From Granulibacter bethesdensis (GTDB lineage: Bacteria > Pseudomonadota > Alphaproteobacteria > Acetobacterales > Acetobacteraceae): a DNA stretch of 64,000 bases. The notes under the pieces were generated by a model, which was not told the DNA's origin, made no database searches, and saw only the letters and a program-made list of their open reading frames with translations. How positions within the stretch are numbered: position 1 is the first letter of the stretch; each line of letters begins with the position of its first letter. The stretch covers positions 1,499,493 to 1,563,492 of the forward strand of contig NZ_CP018192.1 of the NCBI RefSeq assembly GCF_001889525.1. Direction: 5' to 3'. Shown piece after piece: positions 31,410-42,378 of the stretch. The translations under genes and the position numbers were made by a program.

Positions 31410-32352
31410 CGGTACATCCCGCGAAGGCGGGAAACACGGCGATTAAGGTCGGCATCGGCTGACTGACTGCGGTTCATCCCCGCGCAGGCGGGGAACACGC
31501 TGGCCCAGACGCTGTCCCTGACGCTGGCCCCGGTTCATCCCCGCGCAGGCGGGGAACACCACCGCATCGAAGACCCTCACCGCATCGAGCGCGGTTCATC
31601 CCCGCGCAGGCGGGGAACACGCCGATGTGGGAGTGGGAACCGAGTGAAGCAACGGTTCATCCCCGCGCAGGCGGGGAACACAGAATCTGCATGATGTTCT
31701 GGGATGCCCGTCCCGGTTCATCCCCGCGCAGGCGGGGAACACCGCACCGTGCCACCAGCGTTGTACGCTTCAGTCGGTTCATCCCCGCGCAGGCGGGGAA
31801 CACCAGTAGAGCCGCAGCATCGCCACCAAGCGCATCGGTTCATCCCCGCGCAGGCGGGGAACACAAACAGGATCGATTTCCGCGATGTCGGAAAATCGGT
31901 TCATCCCCGCGCAGGCGGGGAACACGTCGCTGCACAATCGTTCCCCACGTTCCCTGACGGTTCATCCCCGCGCAGGCGGGGAACACCAGATCGAGGATAT
32001 CGGCCATATCGATCGTCCCGGTTCATCCCCGCGCAGGCGGGGAACACGCCCGGGATGTCAGCTGCCAGCGCAGCATGTCCGGTTCATCCCCGCGCAGGCG
32101 GGGAACACTTTCCGACATACAGCAGTTAGACTTACCTTCCCGGTTCATCCCCGCGCAGGCGGGGAACACCTGGCTATGCGAGGCCAGCCACGACAGGTAT
32201 TCGGTTCATCCCCGCGCAGGCGGGGAACACTTATAACCGCATATCAGATAATGGAGATGAATCGGTTCATCCCCGCGCAGGCGGGGAACACATTCTCCGG
32301 TCCGGTGTCGAAAAGCGCCTCTGCGGTTCATCCCCGCGCAGGCGGGGAACAC
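31410..32352 (-). CRISPR. CRISPR array 1, type I-E, 16 repeats and 15 spacers
   Basis: Fifteen identical 29-base repeats start every 61 bases from 31470 to 32324, separated by 32-base spacers. A sixteenth, degenerate 28-base copy at 31410-31437 marks the old (trailer) end. Read on the minus strand the repeat opens GTGTTCCCCGCC and has the stem CCCCGC/GCGGGG and the 3' handle ATGAACCG, i.e. a classic Cas6e-type repeat. The leader and newest spacers are on the right, next to cas2. All spacers are unique. Transcription is leftward from the leader. Confidence 0.98.
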
Positions 32353-32423
32353 TCTTCGTGTAAATTATTGATTCAAAATTGTTTTTACATTGTCAAAGAT
32401 CTTACCGACAGAAAAAGAGGTTT
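32353..32423 (-). promoter_or_regulatory. Leader of CRISPR array 1 with an IHF site
   Basis: 71 A/T-rich bases between array 1 and cas2. On the minus strand AATCAATAATTTA (32373-32361) fits the IHF consensus WATCAANNNNTTR perfectly and lies 8 bases from the first repeat, as known for type I-E adaptation. A TTGACA (32396-32391) may be the -35 of the crRNA promoter. Confidence 0.75.
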
Positions 32424-33654
<1,231 letters not shown>

Positions 33655-33658
<4 letters not shown>

Positions 33659-34338
33659 GCCCGCCGGATGATCATCAGACCGCATCCAAACGATTTCGCC
33701 CGTCCGAATCCCTGCGAAAGATTCATGAGAAAAAGCGCCGGGTCAGTCATTTCGAGATGACCCGAAAGATCGAGAATCCCGAGCTTCATCGCGTGGCGGT
33801 CCGTTGCCCCCGGACGTAGCAGCGACAATTGCCGATAATCCTCGGCAATCGCGGTGATAACTCTGAAGCCGCTTTTTTCTCCCTGCTGTTCCAGCCACGC
33901 CTTCCCTGCCAAGGAGGCGATTTCCATACGACGTTCTGCGCGCTCACTCTGTTCCAAAGCATCTATGGGCGCCTTGACGACGTCTTCCCGTTTGCCATCC
34001 CGTTTCATACGGGTCGCATTGGCGCGGAGCAGGAACTCAAGGCGGGCGCCGGGCGCGAGATCCGGTGCATAGGGCTTGATCCGATGCGGCTGGAAAAGAT
34101 CAGACTGGAGCGGCGGACGTGCAGAAAGCGTGAGGAAGCTGCCGTCCCGCTCCTCCCGCCAGAGGAAATCCCGTTTTCTTTCCTCGCTGTCAGCAAACAC
34201 CGACCAGAGTAGATGGTGCTGTGCGGACACCCGCTCTCCCGACGCCCGCCTCCCGGACTCCGAGGATTGCAGCAGTACGGCCAGAGCCCGTGCGGAAGGA
34301 TTTCGGGCCAGGCGGAGATGGCTGAAATAAAGTGTCAT
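33655..34338 (-). CDS. cas6e: Cas6e (CasE) crRNA endoribonuclease
   Basis: 227 residues from MTLYFSHLRLARNPSARALA (ATG at 34338, two bases from the cas5e stop). The N-terminal RRM-like fold, HHLLWSVFADSEERKRDFLW and the Gly-rich C-terminal loop LSQGFGRAKSFGCGLMIIRRA are typical; the His of the HHLLW segment is the probable catalytic residue. Cleaves the repeat hairpin of the pre-crRNA and stays bound in Cascade. Confidence 0.96.
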
Positions 34339-34339
34339 G

Positions 34340-35013
34340 TCAGCCTCCCGCCACGATGCTGACCGGACGCAGACCAACCCGCCGGGCGGCAAAATGCCAG
34401 CTGGTACGGTCCAGCGGAACGTCAGTCACGACCTCACCCTCCGGATCATCAGTAACAAGCAGGTGCGCTTGTACGGATGCTTTACGCCAAAGGGGAGCTT
34501 TCAGATGTTCCAGCGCCGCCTCCGCAGAAACCGCTTCGACAATCTTCGCCCCGGTCGGCGCGGCAAGCGGACATGATTTCCGTCCGAGATAAAGCGTGAA
34601 ATGCGGTTCCAGCAGCGACGCCGCAATCCTCTCCAACCCTGCGCCCCGCACCGCAATTCCGTAAAACACACTGGTCCGATAGTCGCGATGGGTGATGGTC
34701 GTGTTGGTTCTGCCGCGCGCGTCCCTCAAAGCTTCCGGTCGAGAGTTCGGGTTTTTCGCGGCAGCGGACGGAATTGTCTCAATGGTATGGTAATCACGCA
34801 CGAGCGCACCAGCATCGAAGATCGCCACATCGATCGACAGGACATCGAGCGCAGAAAAATCTCCGTCCCGTTCGATCCCGAGCGCGGCGCCCATCAGCCC
34901 GATGATCGCCGATCGGGTAGGCCATATGAGAGAACCTCGCCGCTCATGTCCTGCGAGTTCGCCCATCGAGCCCAGTGAGGCGGTCAGACCGAACACCAGA
35001 AAGGGCTGCTGCA

Positions 35014-35014
<1 letters not shown>
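34340..35014 (-). CDS. cas5: Cas5e (CasD) Cascade subunit
   Basis: 224 residues (ATG at 35014 overlapping the cas7e TGA). Opens MQQPFLVFGLTASLGSMGE and has RRGSLIWPTRSAIIGLMGAA and the C-terminal GRKSCPLAAPTGAK motif of type I-E Cas5. Caps the 5' handle of the crRNA. Confidence 0.96.
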
Positions 35015-36577
<1,563 letters not shown>

Positions 36578-36581
<4 letters not shown>

Positions 36582-38035
36582 GCGGCTTTCCTTTTCCCTT
36601 TTTCCGGCAGCGGAAGGCCAAGCGCCTTGAAAATCTCGCCACCCTGTTTTCCGTAGCCTGCAAGCGCCAGCCCCAGATATCGGCGGGCCTCTGTGATACG
36701 CCCGATTGCTTCCACTTCCCGCTGATTCAAGCCGGGAAGCGCCTTTGCATCGAACTGTCCAAGTGCTTGTCGGCGAAGATCAGCCAGCCAGGCATCCGCG
36801 GTGTCTTCGCCACGCTCAATCGCCTGAACATGAGTGAGGAATTTCGTTTCAGTCTGACGGAAAAACTCCTCACGCTCCGCTTCCCGCGCTTCGCCCTCCG
36901 CCAGAACAGGCGTAAGCGCATTACGCAGGGCCACCGCTACGGCATCAGCCGCCTGAATCAGGTCCACAATCCTGTATTCCGCTTCCTCGGGTATTGCTGA
37001 CAACCGGCGCTGACGTGAAAGAATGAAGTCACGAGGCTTCATATTATCCATCGACCAGCCAGCGACGAGGATGGAGCCTCCACCAATTCTTTCTTCCCGC
37101 AGGCACAATGCCAGTTCGGAGAGATCGCTCTCTTTTTCCTTGACCACCACACCAAGCCAGTTGCGATAGCCGAAATGGCCGACGCGAGGGTGTTTCGGCA
37201 GCCATTCCGTGCCGAGTTTCAGTCGATAATAGGGGCTGAGTGGATGTTTCCAGAGCGCATAATTCGTGCCCCACGGTTTCTGAATCACGCCGGTTACCAT
37301 CCCCTCATCATGGGTAAGACGCAGCCTGCGCGGCATTCCAAAAAAAGCCTCCGCTCCAAAAAGCGCACCATCTGGCGGAAGAGTCTTCTGTCCAGTGTCT
37401 GAAACACGGGTCGGCCGCATCCAGGGCAGAGTTTCCATTTTCGCGGAATATCCGCACGGCACATTCACCCAGACCAGATCCCACAGCATCCGCTCCGGAT
37501 CGACCAGCGTGACCATTGGTCCACCACCGCGCAGCGAGGTACGGTTTCCTCGACCGCCCGATGGGGCATCAGCCTGAAATGTGTAAAGCGCCATTGCCGC
37601 CATGGGAAAATCGAGACGGTCATACCGGCTGCGATGCACCATGACATCCGCGTTGTTGCCCGCTGTTTGTACCCCGGCGCTGTCGATGAACAGCATATCG
37701 ACAGAACTGGCTTCATCCGTGAAAGGCTCCAGATCCTGAAGGAAACGCGGCCCATCACCGACAAGGTTGAACGCCGGAGCGTAGGGTGCCAGCTTTTCTT
37801 GCAACCGTTGTGGGTCGGGATTGCGTCGTGCCTCCCAGTCCTCCCCGTCAACAGGAGGATCAGCGAGAAAAACCAGCCCGATCAGAAGTTCAAGGCAGGC
37901 GATATTGAGGTCAGGACGCGGCCAGTCGGGCTGCACCACATCCGGTTCCGCCATCTGCCAGGGTGCAATGACCCGTCGCGATCCATCTGCGCAAAGAACA
38001 GGAATCCATTGATCGTCAATGAGATTGAGAGACAC
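36578..38035 (-). CDS. cse1: Cse1 (CasA, Cas8e) PAM-recognition subunit
   Basis: 485 residues from a GTG at 38035 that has GGAGA 7 bases upstream and gives the family N-terminus VSLNLIDDQWIPVLC. An ATG at 38095 would add 20 atypical residues without a ribosome-binding site. TSLRGGGPMVTLV matches the CasA SGLRGG-PVTT block. Lacks the zinc-like Cys cluster of the E. coli protein. Large subunit recognising the PAM and recruiting Cas3. First gene of the cse1-cas2 operon, 230 bases downstream of a promoter that overlaps a crRNA-like target site. Confidence 0.94.
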
Positions 38036-38160
38036 GCAATGATCTCCGATTGCTGCGCCAGGTACGAAAATGTGCTCGAAGTAGAAATGTGACAAAGATG
38101 CTTCGTCGAAATTGCAAAAACCCCGGACACCGCATAATTGCGGCTACATAAAATGAGGGC

Positions 38161-38172
38161 TTATGCAGACAT
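38161..38172 (-). other. Three-codon mini-ORF with a good ribosome-binding site
   Basis: In the leader between the cse1 promoter and cse1, GGAAG (38184-38180) is followed after 7 bases by ATG TCT GCA TAA. About 20 bases further on a hairpin CCGCA/TGCGG (38143-38130) is followed at some distance by five T. This may be a regulatory leader ORF or the core of a CreT-like toxin RNA; nothing proves translation. Confidence 0.3.
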
Positions 38173-38272
38173 TTTATTACTTCCAACCAGAATTTTACTT
38201 AGTTGATTGAACGAAAACGGAATTTATATATTTAGCAGCCCCGATGGAGCCTCCTTTGTTGAGGCTGTTTTC

Positions 38273-38301
38273 GCTATAGGCCCTAACAAATTATATGTCA
38301 A
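38273..38301 (-). promoter_or_regulatory. Probable sigma-70 promoter of the cse1 operon
   Basis: TTGACA (38301-38296), a 17-base spacer, then TATAGC (38278-38273). The -35 is perfect and the spacing ideal. The -35 and spacer are overlapped by a 32-base protospacer-like site (38319-38288) with an AAG PAM (38322-38320). Confidence 0.7.
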
Positions 38302-38322
38302 CCACATTTAACCTAAGCACTT
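38288..38322 (-). promoter_or_regulatory. Protospacer-like target of the crRNA-like element
   Basis: AAG at 38322-38320 is followed by TGCTTAGGTTAAATGTG. Compared with the guide of the degenerate repeat unit upstream, 14 of the first 17 bases agree. The differences are at 6, 12 and 15, and the next mismatch is at 18. AAG is the canonical E. coli type I-E PAM. Cascade binding here would cover the -35 of the cse1 promoter. Confidence 0.65.
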
Positions 38323-38334
38323 AAATTTTGCTCA

Positions 38335-38423
38335 TTGCATATCCCCGCTCTGGCGGGGAACAAGTCTGCCCTACGGACATATCTAACCCAAGCACGGGCC
38401 ATCTCCGTTTTCACAGAGAAGCA
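38335..38423 (-). ncRNA. CreR/CreA-like crRNA-mimicking regulatory RNA (degenerate repeat-spacer-repeat)
   Basis: Minus strand, in order. Pseudo-repeat 1 (38423-38395) overlaps the cas3 stop, has the stem CTCTG/CGGAG and the handle ATGGCCCG (array 1: ATGAACCG). A 31-base pseudo-spacer (38394-38364) follows. Pseudo-repeat 2 (38363-38335) agrees with the array-1 repeat at 21 of 29 positions, including the full CCCCGC...GCGGGG stem. The guide begins TGCTTGGGTTAGAT and matches a site 75 bases downstream beside an AAG PAM. Known CreA/CreR RNAs share this layout and direct Cascade to repress a toxin or cas promoter without cleavage. No independent promoter is evident, so it may be processed from the cas3 transcript. 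Confidence 0.72.
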
Positions 38424-40909
38424 AACACAAGACCGCACTCCGCGTCATAATACAATCCATTACAAATGTTACCATTTTTATCGACGGGGCACAGCCTGAT
38501 CTGCGCGCGCTTCCACTCTGGCCAGTCTTTTGCGATCTTCATGATTTCCGGCGACGACTGATCAGGGAGTGGCAAGGCATCCAGCTTCTTACGGTGGGCA
38601 GAGACGTCGGACAGCGCCCAGGCATCCTCGCCTTCTCCTTCCGCCCACGGGACCAGACCGAGCCCCGTCCGGCGGGCCAGGCGCAGGACACGCACCTCTT
38701 CTCCCAGTCGGGTGGGATAGTTTACATCGTCATCGCCACGGCCTGCCTTGCGATAGCCATCCGTGAACTTCACGATATTATGCCAGGCCAGCCCCCTGTC
38801 GGCGCTGTCTTTGCCGTATTTATCCTGTTCCGCCTTCAGGAGAGCTTCCGGTACCGGCTCTGCATCCGCTCCATAGACTGCTTCAATCAGCGCGCGCTGA
38901 CGGTCCGGCGTCCCGATCTGTCCTTGTGTGAACAAGACGCGTGCGCTCCGCCAGACATCGGCAAGCGCGTAAACCCACGCGCCTTTTCCCAGCGTACCGT
39001 GCAGCCATCGTTCATCCTCAACCAGAGAGGGGTCCGGTGAGAGAACATACAGCACCGGCCCCGCAACCGGACGAACCGAGACCGGCCGGATATCCATATG
39101 TCGCCACAGACGCCCTGCCCGCTGGATCAGCGCCGCGATGGGCGCGATATCGGACACCATCACGTCAAAATCCAGATCGAGTGAAGACTCCAGAACCTGT
39201 GTTCCCACAAGGACGAAGCCTGCCCTGCCCTGACCGTTTTTCCCGACCCTTGCCAGAATCTCCACCTCGATCCGTTTGCGATCACACAAGGCGAAGCGGG
39301 CGTGAATAAGCCGGGCCTCCACACCTGCGGCCCGAAGGGCCTCGACAGCCTCGATTGCGTCATCCACCGCATTACGCACCCACACACAGGCCGCACCTTG
39401 CGCAGCCATTTTGGTCAGAAGCGTAACCGCATCAGCTGCCGTATCGAGTCTTTCAACCTTCACCGGCCCTTTCACCGGATAGTCTTCTGCCGGGAACTGC
39501 GTGATGGCCTCCCCTCCCGCAATAGTCAGGGCCGGATAGGCGGGATTGTCGGACGCCCCATCATAGGTCGCCAGCAACTTGCTGCGGAGGCTCATAGGCA
39601 GCGTCGCCGTCAGAAGAATTGCGGACCCACCCGCAGCCCGGTGCATTTTCAAAAGTGCCGTGAGTTCTTCTGCGATATATGCCTCTCCCATTTCATGGAC
39701 TTCATCGACGAGGAGAATCTTCGATGACAGGCCATAAATGCGTAATGTCTGAAACCGAACCGGCAGCACGGACAGCAATGCCTGATCAATCGTTCCTATT
39801 CCGACATCGGCCAGCAATGCGCGTCGGTTGCCCTCCGCCAGCCAATCCGAGGAGGTGATCTCTCCCGGTCCGCCGGTTCTGCTTCTCTGCACCAGATCGC
39901 GAAATGGCACCGATAGCCCGGCACGTCCATGCGCCAATGTTACAGAGGGATTGTCGAACATGCGTCCGACAATGCGCGAAGCGCGGTCAAACATGGCATC
40001 GGTCGTCGCCATTGTTGGCAGAGCATCAAACAAACCGCGTCCCTTCCCTGCCTGGCAGAAACGATGCACGAGGATAAGCGCCGCTTCCGTCTTCCCCGTC
40101 CCGGTTCCATCCTCCACAATCGCCAGTGTCGGCCCATCTGGCAGAGCGATGGTTGAGCAAGCCACCTGCATGGGGCGCAGCGCGAAATCGAACAGATCTC
40201 CCTCCCGCACCATGGTGCCAGCGATTCCCGCCTCGACGACGGCGCGGGCTGCAATGGCACGGGTCTGTTGCAGATAAGCGGCGAGGCTGTCCGCCTCTGT
40301 CTTTGGCGGGAACCATCCCAAATTGGACCCGACCCAGTCGGCTGCCGCGCAGAATCCTGCCAGCCACCAGGAGAGCGTTGTAGCTTCGACCAGTGTCAGC
40401 CCTTCGAGCGAGGCTGCCGGCCACAGATCAAAGAATACGTCCATCAGCCGCGCAGCCGGTTCACGACCTTCTCCAACACATTTCAATGCCCTGAAGAGTT
40501 CTCGTGACAAACGCGCTTCTGGTGGAAGAGCGCCGAGCATATGCTCCGACGGGCGCCCATGATGTCCGGCTATGGCTGCGTAGAGCATTTTCCGCACCAG
40601 CGGTGTTCCGCCAAGACGGGCTGCTATCCGCGCATCTTCAACATAGAACAGGGCTTCGCTGAGTTCCCAGTGACGGAACCCCGGTTGCGCCACACCTTCG
40701 TGAAGCATGGCGCGGAAGCTCTCACTGATCTTGCCGATATCATGGAGCCCCGCCAGCACAACCAGCGCATCGCGAAGGGGAGGTGCCATGCCGAATGGCT
40801 CAATCAGCCTTTCCGCCACCGCAGCAACATCAAGCATATGAAAGGCTGCCGGATGTTCAGGACCATCCGGAGTGGCCGAGCTTTTACCCGGCCAGTTTTT
40901 CCACTGCAT
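38411..40909 (-). CDS. cas3: Cas3 nuclease-helicase, type I-E
   Basis: 832 residues. HD nuclease domain first (LAGLHDIGKISESFRAMLHE, AIAGHHGRP), then an SF2 helicase with Walker A EDGTGTGKTEAALIL, the DEVHEMG box (DEVH rather than DEAH), SAILLTATLP and QRAGRLWRHMD. Recruited by Cascade to degrade target DNA. TGGAG lies 8 bases before the ATG. The stop codon sits in the loop of pseudo-repeat 1 of the crRNA-like element. Separated from cse1 by 375 bases, and from array 2 by 340 bases. Confidence 0.97.
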   Translation of the reverse strand: MQWKNWPGKSSATPDGPEHPAAFHMLDVAAVAERLIEPFGMAPPLRDALVVLAGLHDIGKISESFRAMLHEGVAQPGFRHWELSEALFYVEDARIAARLGGTPLVRKMLYAAIAGHHGRPSEHMLGALPPEARLSRELFRALKCVGEGREPAARLMDVFFDLWPAASLEGLTLVEATTLSWWLAGFCAAADWVGSNLGWFPPKTEADSLAAYLQQTRAIAARAVVEAGIAGTMVREGDLFDFALRPMQVACSTIALPDGPTLAIVEDGTGTGKTEAALILVHRFCQAGKGRGLFDALPTMATTDAMFDRASRIVGRMFDNPSVTLAHGRAGLSVPFRDLVQRSRTGGPGEITSSDWLAEGNRRALLADVGIGTIDQALLSVLPVRFQTLRIYGLSSKILLVDEVHEMGEAYIAEELTALLKMHRAAGGSAILLTATLPMSLRSKLLATYDGASDNPAYPALTIAGGEAITQFPAEDYPVKGPVKVERLDTAADAVTLLTKMAAQGAACVWVRNAVDDAIEAVEALRAAGVEARLIHARFALCDRKRIEVEILARVGKNGQGRAGFVLVGTQVLESSLDLDFDVMVSDIAPIAALIQRAGRLWRHMDIRPVSVRPVAGPVLYVLSPDPSLVEDERWLHGTLGKGAWVYALADVWRSARVLFTQGQIGTPDRQRALIEAVYGADAEPVPEALLKAEQDKYGKDSADRGLAWHNIVKFTDGYRKAGRGDDDVNYPTRLGEEVRVLRLARRTGLGLVPWAEGEGEDAWALSDVSAHRKKLDALPLPDQSSPEIMKIAKDWPEWKRAQIRLCPVDKNGNICNGLYYDAECGLVFASL

Positions 40910-41251
40910 TGCGCAGCTCCATCAACTTAACTGTCCGGAGATGTTTAATCTCATGGATAGGTAAAAATTACGAAACTATCACAGGCACTGGATTAAAAGG
41001 TGCTTCGGCAATCCAGGAGACAGCTTCTTAAATCTCAACATGGTTCATACGTAAAATGCCATACGGTCTAAAAACAGATCATGCACCACCCTCCACTTCG
41101 AGAAGGAGGCGGACTAAAGGTGCGTTGATATTAATAATTGCTCCGTCCTGAGCGAAGCTTGGAAAGCAGACCTTTCTCCGAGAGCTGATCAACTATTTTC
41201 CCGCCGTCTGGCGCCGCATGCTCAGGTCGGGCTGACCATATTCGATTTTCG
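40910..41251. other. Gap between cas3 and the trailer of array 2
   Basis: 342 bases without a gene. It should contain the cas3 promoter on the minus strand, but I cannot fix one with confidence. An inverted repeat CTGGATT/AATCCAG (about 40988-41016) and a handle-like ATGAACC (minus strand, ~41048-41042) are present. Confidence 0.4.
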
Positions 41252-42378
41252 GAACTATCCCCGCATACGCGGGGGAACCCAGCCAGCAGGCATTGGCGGA
41301 TCGTGTCGGCACGAACTATCCCCGCATACGCGGGGGAACCCCTCCGGATGCGCCGAAACCAGGACTGGTAAGAGGACTATCCCCGCATACGCGGGGGAAC
41401 CCGCATCGGATACCCGGGTCCATTCGTCCCACAGGGACTATCCCCGCATACGCGGGGGAACCCTAATGCGGCTCTGAATTCTGAGGCGGACTCAGGGACT
41501 ATCCCCGCATACGCGGGGGAACCTTCCGAACTGGTGGGGAACTGGTTCCGAACTGGGGACTATCCCCGCATACGCGGGGGAACCTCAAATGGCGGCCGTA
41601 TTACAGCGGCCCCATTTGGACTATCCCCGCATACGCGGGGGAACCGCCCTTCCACAGCCTCTGGAAATCGGGACCACAGGACTATCCCCGCATACGCGGG
41701 GGAACCCGCCTCATCCCATGCAATTTGGGGTGCACCCCAGGACTATCCCCGCATACGCGGGGGAACCGCCATCGCGTGGTACGACGGAGCGCGCACACGA
41801 GGACTATCCCCGCATACGCGGGGGAACCATCCCGGCGAGATGGATACGGCGCAGCCAGCGCGGACTATCCCCGCATACGCGGGGGAACCGCGCTGCCGCC
41901 CAGCAATCCCAGCGCCGCGCGGGGACTATCCCCGCATACGCGGGGGAACCCTGTCGCGTCTGGCGGAGGGCGCGGGGTTGCAGGGACTATCCCCGCATAC
42001 GCGGGGGAACCCCCTTCGCCCCACAGCCGAAACAATAATATCCGGGACTATCCCCGCATACGCGGGGGAACCCGGCAATAGAGCCGCAGGTAGGCGACGA
42101 GTGGAGGACTATCCCCGCATACGCGGGGGAACCGAGCACAAAGGGGCGGCGTAGATCGCTCCTACGGGACTATCCCCGCATACGCGGGGGAACCCAAAAG
42201 CGCGAATGCCGAGGATTTTCAGCGTATGGACTATCCCCGCATACGCGGGGGAACCCGTTTGATTGCCCGCAGAATCATGGCGCTGGCGCGGACTATCCCC
42301 GCATACGCGGGGGAACCCTGCCAATAATGCCGACGCGACCGCCGGGGATGGGACTATCCCCGCATACGCGGGGGAACC
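41252..42378 (-). CRISPR. CRISPR array 2, type I-E-like repeat, 19 repeats and 18 spacers
   Basis: Nineteen 28-base repeats with a 61-base period (33-base spacers). One spacer is 34 bases (42256-42289). The repeat differs from array 1: minus strand GGTTCCCCCGC, loop GTAT, GCGGGG, then ATAGTCC. The first two copies at the left end carry a G-to-A change in the flank (GAACTATCC), marking the old end. The newest end is on the right, next to an A/T-rich leader. The base preceding each repeat varies, so the repeat unit is 28, not 29. Confidence 0.97.

Follow-up and report, generated by a model that had tools for sequence, protein, structure and literature searches.

Among the described systems in which a crRNA-like RNA acts within its own CRISPR-Cas locus, CreR and CreTA come closest to the locus presented here. 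CreR, the cas-regulating RNA of Liu et al. (2023, Cell Host Microbe, as cited in PMC12737573), is described as a crRNA-like RNA that lies next to cas genes and can pair, to a limited extent, with a promoter of the same locus (PMC12737573, PMC13131331), and autorepression by CreR has been reported for types I-B, I-E and V-A (PMC13131331). The CreTA modules of Haloarcula hispanica and Halobacterium hubeiense (type I-B) are likewise placed in the cas locus and have two divergent repeats, a seed at positions 1-5 and 7-11, dispensable positions 6 and 12, and a PAM beside the target (PMC8501985); bacterial modules were predicted in the same source already in 2021. In Acinetobacter (type I-F), a bacterial crRNA-like RNA guides Cascade to repress a promoter of the CRISPR-Cas locus (PMC10097628). 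CreTA of Citrobacter rodentium occupies the cas3-casA gap of a type I-E locus, with ATG as a canonical PAM and a partly complementary site near a promoter; its CreA lies on the opposite strand, and a 96-bp toxin ORF is proven to be translated (PMC12055562). A 2025 review still treats it as a question whether such mechanisms are widespread outside type I-B (PMC12737573), and searches of the open-licence PMC literature yielded no report of such modules in Acetobacteraceae or Rhodobacteraceae.

The window, as we call the whole 64,000-nt stretch of Granulibacter bethesdensis DNA analysed here, holds a module with features of all these systems in the gap between cas3 and cse1 of a type I-E locus. 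It shares with CreR the traits named above and differs in that its promoter lies 284 nt before cse1, the link to which we infer. It also agrees with the haloarchaeal CreTA in the listed features, differing in its type and in having no recognisable mini-ORF with AGA or AUA codons, which some relatives possess. It resembles CreTA of C. rodentium in type, gap, canonical PAM and partial complementarity near a promoter, and Acinetobacter CreTA in the kind of RNA and the probable role of Cascade; unlike in C. rodentium, the guide is encoded on the cas strand and no toxin was found.

Organization of the cas3-cse1 gap

The genome containing the window has 2.69 Mb, and the genus is represented by three genomes of ~2.7 Mb. 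The type I-E gene set on the minus strand is complete (Table 1), and the cas6e region (33655-34392) scores above the cut-off of TIGR01907, so a gene for the RNA-processing enzyme is present. A second cas3-like gene, 33% identical, is located elsewhere in the genome (L006, G000:C1:1918514-1920676).

Outside the arrays, a two-repeat mini-CRISPR at 38335-38423 shares bases with the cas3 stop codon. Along the minus strand the order is psiR1, guide, psiR2, AAG, a guide-like site and TTGACA-N17-TATAGC, and every element of the repeat-spacer-repeat unit was located where the preliminary description had placed it. Both repeats form hairpins better than expected from their composition, with z values of -3.6 for psiR1 (0 of 200 shuffles equally good) and -3.45 for psiR2 (2 of 200). 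The latter had been described as carrying the complete stem of array 1, which is correct for the stem, common to both, while the loop differs from the array-1 repeat at 2 of 21 nt (counted by hand). When the 89-nt RNA is folded in silico, the seed is base-paired with the handle, and such pairing could impede the seed if the predicted fold holds true in the cell. For the guide RNA itself, the promoter scan listed no minus-strand promoter as far as 38500.

Table 1. Features of the cas3-cse1 gap and its surroundings (window coordinates)
Feature	Coordinates	Strand	Remarks
CRISPR array 1	31476..32360	-	repeat GTGTTCCCCGCCTGCGCGGGGATGAACCG; repeat handle ATGAACCG
cse2, cas7e, cas5e, cas6e, cas1e, cas2e	32424..36581	-	in operon order
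cse1	36578..38035	-	GTG 38035 is the likely start; listed ORF begins at TTG 38095
Weak candidate minigene ATG TCT GCA TAA	38161..38172	-	not reported by the strong-SD search
Short hairpin	38248..38266	-	directly 3' of the promoter; z -1.9; 10 of 200 shuffles equally good
Promoter-like TTGACA-N17-TATAGC	38273..38301	-	TTGACA (-35) 38296-38301, inside the target; TATAGC 38273-38278
Target	38288..38319	-	paired with guide positions 1-5, 7-11, 13, 14, 16, 17
PAM AAG	38320..38322	-	adjoins the target
psiR2, second repeat	38335..38363	-	stem CCCCGC/GCGGGG, as in array 1
Guide, 31 nt	38364..38394	-	begins TGCTTGGGTTAGAT
psiR1, first degenerate repeat	38395..38423	-	stem CTCTG/CGGAG; handle ATGGCCCG at 38395-38402
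cas3 stop codon	38411-38413	-	inside psiR1
cas3	38411..40909	-	cas3_core and cas3_HD models
Second CRISPR array	41247-42378		other side of cas3; different repeat GGACTATCCCCGCATACGCGGGGGAACC (+ strand)

Pairing between guide and target

The match initially noticed between the guide and a site 75 nt downstream, with 14 of the first 17 positions in agreement, proved exact base by base: mismatches fall at positions 6, 12 and 15, then at 18, so that all ten seed positions (1-5 and 7-11) are paired, and the AAG expected as a PAM is present. The 317 nt downstream contain 20 PAM-like sites, and a shuffled guide matched the complete seed at any of them in a single trial out of 200,000. The 2.69-Mb genome contains the pattern TGCTTNGGTTANAT, with 12 fixed bases, exactly twice, in the guide and in the target, and its reversed control once. 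The overlap of the target with the -35 element of TTGACA-N17-TATAGC, also claimed beforehand, agrees in its coordinates, but the -10 of this candidate promoter (TATAGC) has only 4 of 6 consensus bases and the promoter was not listed by the scan, which reported no minus-strand promoter in 37950-38500.

Modules in the gaps of related genomes

A census of 133 cas3-cse1 gaps, mostly alphaproteobacterial and 127 of them scannable by length, combined 53 of 54 family matches with 80 loci from named genomes, these being the best 80 of 561 confirmed. The family matches came from a strong cas3 match in 54 of 397 family genomes, with G193 omitted because of a contig end. Candidates needed a handle of at least 6/8 and a hairpin, and a target was a downstream site with a seed of at least 9/10 and a canonical PAM, so that position 6 and positions 12 onward played no part in detection. 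Since some genomes are present twice (L139 = L019, L142 = L020, several Bombella loci), the 57 repeat-like candidates include duplicates. A target accompanied 27 of these 57, where shuffled guides lead to an expectation of 0.045; displacing the guide by 1-6 nt gave 0-2 targets per shift. The remaining 30 include remnants as well as sequences resembling chance handles. Loci with a seed of 8/10 (L023, L028, L029, L038 and the plasmid locus L148) were excluded from the counts, while L003, L027, L090 and L094, which fail the PAM, handle or stem filter of the 27, were added for the counts given below over 28 and 31 modules.

The mismatch profile was drawn up from 25 modules, leaving out L139 and L058 (whose guide equals that of L053). 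Mismatches are frequent at position 6 (17 modules) and position 12 (18), and rare at positions 13 and 14 (1 and 2). The preliminary description had argued that differences at 6, 12 and 18 are free, and in these relatives only the first two positions stand out; position 18 is not special, and the argument from it is weak because pairing is mostly gone from there onward (mismatch in 18 of 25 at position 18 and in 14-20 of 25 at positions 19-24). A search free of any PAM requirement returned 26 sites, 21 preceded by AAG, 4 by ATG and 1 by ATT, and in 18 of 28 modules the target start has a TTGACA-like hexamer no more than 60 nt away, compared with 2.9 in shuffles. Guide and target also change together between loci: L080 and L084 differ by a double change at position 11, and L042, L045 and L051 have TCTTG at positions 1-5 in common while positions 7-11 change jointly on both sides.

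Modules were also observed on plasmids with I-E genes, namely L145 (Paracoccus aestuarii), with a mini-ORF, and L147 (Frigidibacter mobilis, typed as conjugative) and L151 (Roseomonas marmotae), both in a short CreR-like form. The Frigidibacter mobilis plasmid pcai42C has a site with PAM AAA and a seed of 9/10. At L021 the target, as seen by eye, belongs to an extended and perfect inverted repeat, which may thus offer two target sites in opposite orientation.

Covariation and weakened elements in the sister species

Sister species L003, whose cas3 is 96% identical to that of the window, has the guide TGTTTGGGTTAGAG and the target TGTTTAGGTTAGAT, again with a seed of 10/10; in guide and target alike, position 3 carries T where the window has C, and the mismatch at position 6 is retained. 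Under neutral simulation at 15-24% divergence, 10/10 survives in 4.6-0.7% of the runs. Most segments of the gap are 73-80% identical between the two, and with 82% for the guide and 76% for the target these are conserved no better than their surroundings, so it is the pairing, rather than the sequence, that has been kept. The 58 nt preceding the cse1 start (38036-38093) are 95% identical (55/58), much more than elsewhere in the gap. Within the genus this comparison covers two species; together with the double changes and the census of other relatives, it indicates that the pairing has probably been kept by selection. Independent change of guide and promoter in related genomes, which the preliminary description had named as evidence against itself, was not what these gaps presented: the two sides changed together, within the genus and between other loci, and did not refute it.

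Several elements are weaker in L003, namely the PAM (AAA), the handle ATGGTCCA (ending in A), the psiR1 stem (a mismatch) and the hexamers (TTGAAA and TATGGC), and the hairpin after the promoter (38248-38266) is lost. The distance from target to cse1 is ~282 nt.

Possible outputs of the targeted promoter

Cse1 probably begins 284 nt after the start of the target in the window, so that 'cse1 promoter' is a tentative designation. Where a cse1 start could be located (30 modules), 6 modules have distances of 77-127 nt and 24 have 231-548 nt. In the short class, such as L105 (Paracoccus binzhouensis) and L119 (Aureimonas altamirensis), there is little room, so the target could hardly belong to anything but a cse1 promoter. 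The window falls into the long class, where the mini-ORFs of relatives occur. These CreT-like mini-ORFs comprise 2-9 codons and are preceded by a strong ribosome-binding site. Of 31 modules, 12 carry a strong-SD mini-ORF after the target (11 of 29 once duplicates are removed, 0 of the 6 short ones), compared with 1.04 in shuffles. Examples are ATG AAG TAA in L017, ATG GGT CTG ATA TAA in L090, ATG GGT CCG ATA TAA in L092, ATG TGG TTC ATG CTC CGC AGA AGA TGA in L019 and GTG CTA AAA ATA CCC TAG on the Paracoccus aestuarii plasmid. L087, L089, L090, L092, L094 and L110, mostly Rhodobacteraceae, have a strong GGAGGTT.. SD and, behind it, an ORF of four codons (ATG and three variable ones, then a stop), and these ORFs are candidate minigene toxins. 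The AGA pairs of relatives resemble the CreT of H. hispanica, and AUA that of H. hubeiense (PMC8501985). Other relatives have putative mini-ORFs without AGA or AUA codons; in the 28 long ORFs of the window, AGA and AUA amount to 3.8 and 5.5 per thousand codons, respectively.

The foremost alternative to a toxin-less regulator, conceivable if unlikely, is that the module of the window is a CreTA with a cryptic toxin, in which a small toxic RNA or a minigene is expressed from the targeted promoter once Cascade is lost. The distance class, the recurrence of mini-ORFs in it, the short hairpin 3' of the promoter, present also in relatives, and L017 of the sister clade, where the same handle ATGGCCCG accompanies a toxin-like minigene behind a strong SD, would all agree with it. 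On the other hand, neither the window nor L003 has a strong-SD mini-ORF after the target. The only candidate for a CreT mini-ORF in the window is the weak one in Table 1, whose ATG is ATA in L003, where the hairpin is also lost, and the downstream stretch has no convincing counterpart among the downstream regions of relatives (best L080, z 4.6, heavily gapped).

Autoregulation of cse1, with the operon itself as the output, appears evenly balanced. It is supported by the six relatives with a target 77-127 nt from cse1 and by the lack of a strong-SD mini-ORF in the window and L003, and no minus-strand terminator was listed between the targeted promoter and cse1; the membership of the window in the long-distance class, which comprises 24 of the 30 modules, the poor -10 and the absence of the promoter from the scan count against it.

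History of the module

The cas3 tree comprised 49 rows of the window's clade, with L074 and L119 omitted for lack of a usable ORF. The window and L003 group with Acetobacter lambici in a clade whose sister is a Bombella-type genus (g33); most sequences around them are of Rhodobacteraceae type, and the presence of the module changes at least 13 times on this tree. By cas3 identity A. lambici reaches 80% and others up to 65% among the best 80 of 561 genome-contig matches. Besides L003, neither the search of 397 family genomes (E up to 1e-100) nor that of 391 relatives (E up to 1e-200) found a cas3 with more than 62% identity, and plasmids yielded none above 60%. A. lambici (L063) retains psiR1 and a homologous guide, and a search of its gap for the target found none. 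Remnants with a psiR1-like repeat and no identifiable target were seen in L014, L081 and L085; that of L014 abuts the cse1 start codon.

The comparison suggests a CreTA ancestor whose toxin was lost in the lineage of the window, and repeated gain of the module may be an alternative history. That the module is a decaying relic, paired by descent and no longer regulating, seems improbable. The weakened PAM, handle, stem and promoter of L003, the lost target of A. lambici and the remnants elsewhere fit decay, but the seed is complete in both species in spite of the double change, and all elements of the window are intact. Self-targeting spacers do exist, yet an ordinary one is contradicted by the mismatch pattern and the covariation, and a chance match by the shuffles of the window's guide and the census, so that with the PAM and the recurrence at the same place either origin is extremely improbable.

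Discussion

We infer a chain of transcription, processing, binding and repression that ends, most likely, at the Cascade operon starting with cse1. The transcript of the mini-array would be cleaved by Cas6e at the two degenerate repeats, and the processed guide would be loaded into type I-E Cascade and brought to the promoter site that lies 75 nt downstream next to AAG. There Cascade would cover the -35 region and block transcription, and Cas3 would not cut, as most of the pairing is confined to the seed. Since the guide matches the promoter at the positions that matter most, Cascade probably sits there and represses without cutting. With cse1 as the output, this would be a negative feedback sensing free Cascade.

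A crRNA-like guide of the CreA/CreR kind, acting through repression without cutting, is highly probable on the strength of the sequence comparisons. Partial matching suited to repression by Cascade, as originally proposed, is strongly supported by the relatives, and so is the crRNA-like nature of the guide; as to the output, they give a divided picture, with both toxin-like and direct-cse1 layouts in this gap. The explanation as a whole, which joins guide-directed repression and cse1 feedback in a toxin-less CreTA derivative, we consider rather probable; besides the points raised against the cse1 output, the weaker elements of L003, the unexceptional conservation of its guide and target, the handle-seed pairing in the predicted fold and the loss of the target in A. 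lambici speak against it.

More tentatively, and slightly short of an even chance, alphaproteobacterial type I-E loci could have in their cas3-cse1 gap a hot spot for a single, rapidly evolving guide/target cassette. This would flip between a pure cas autorepressor and an addiction module with a minigene of 2-9 codons as its toxin, preceded by a very strong ribosome-binding site, and the window would hold a naturally detoxified CreTA that has turned, or is turning, into a CreR. The locus would add a comparatively well-supported natural case of type I-E Cascade acting as a programmable repressor, and the relatives display the pairing rule, with positions 1-5 and 7-11 kept and positions 6 and 12 free, from evolution alone, without experiment. 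As toxin-like, toxin-less and remnant forms occur in the same gap, the transition from addiction module to regulator becomes a question that can be asked, and if a detoxified CreTA has indeed given rise to a CreR, this conversion would be traceable in living genomes.
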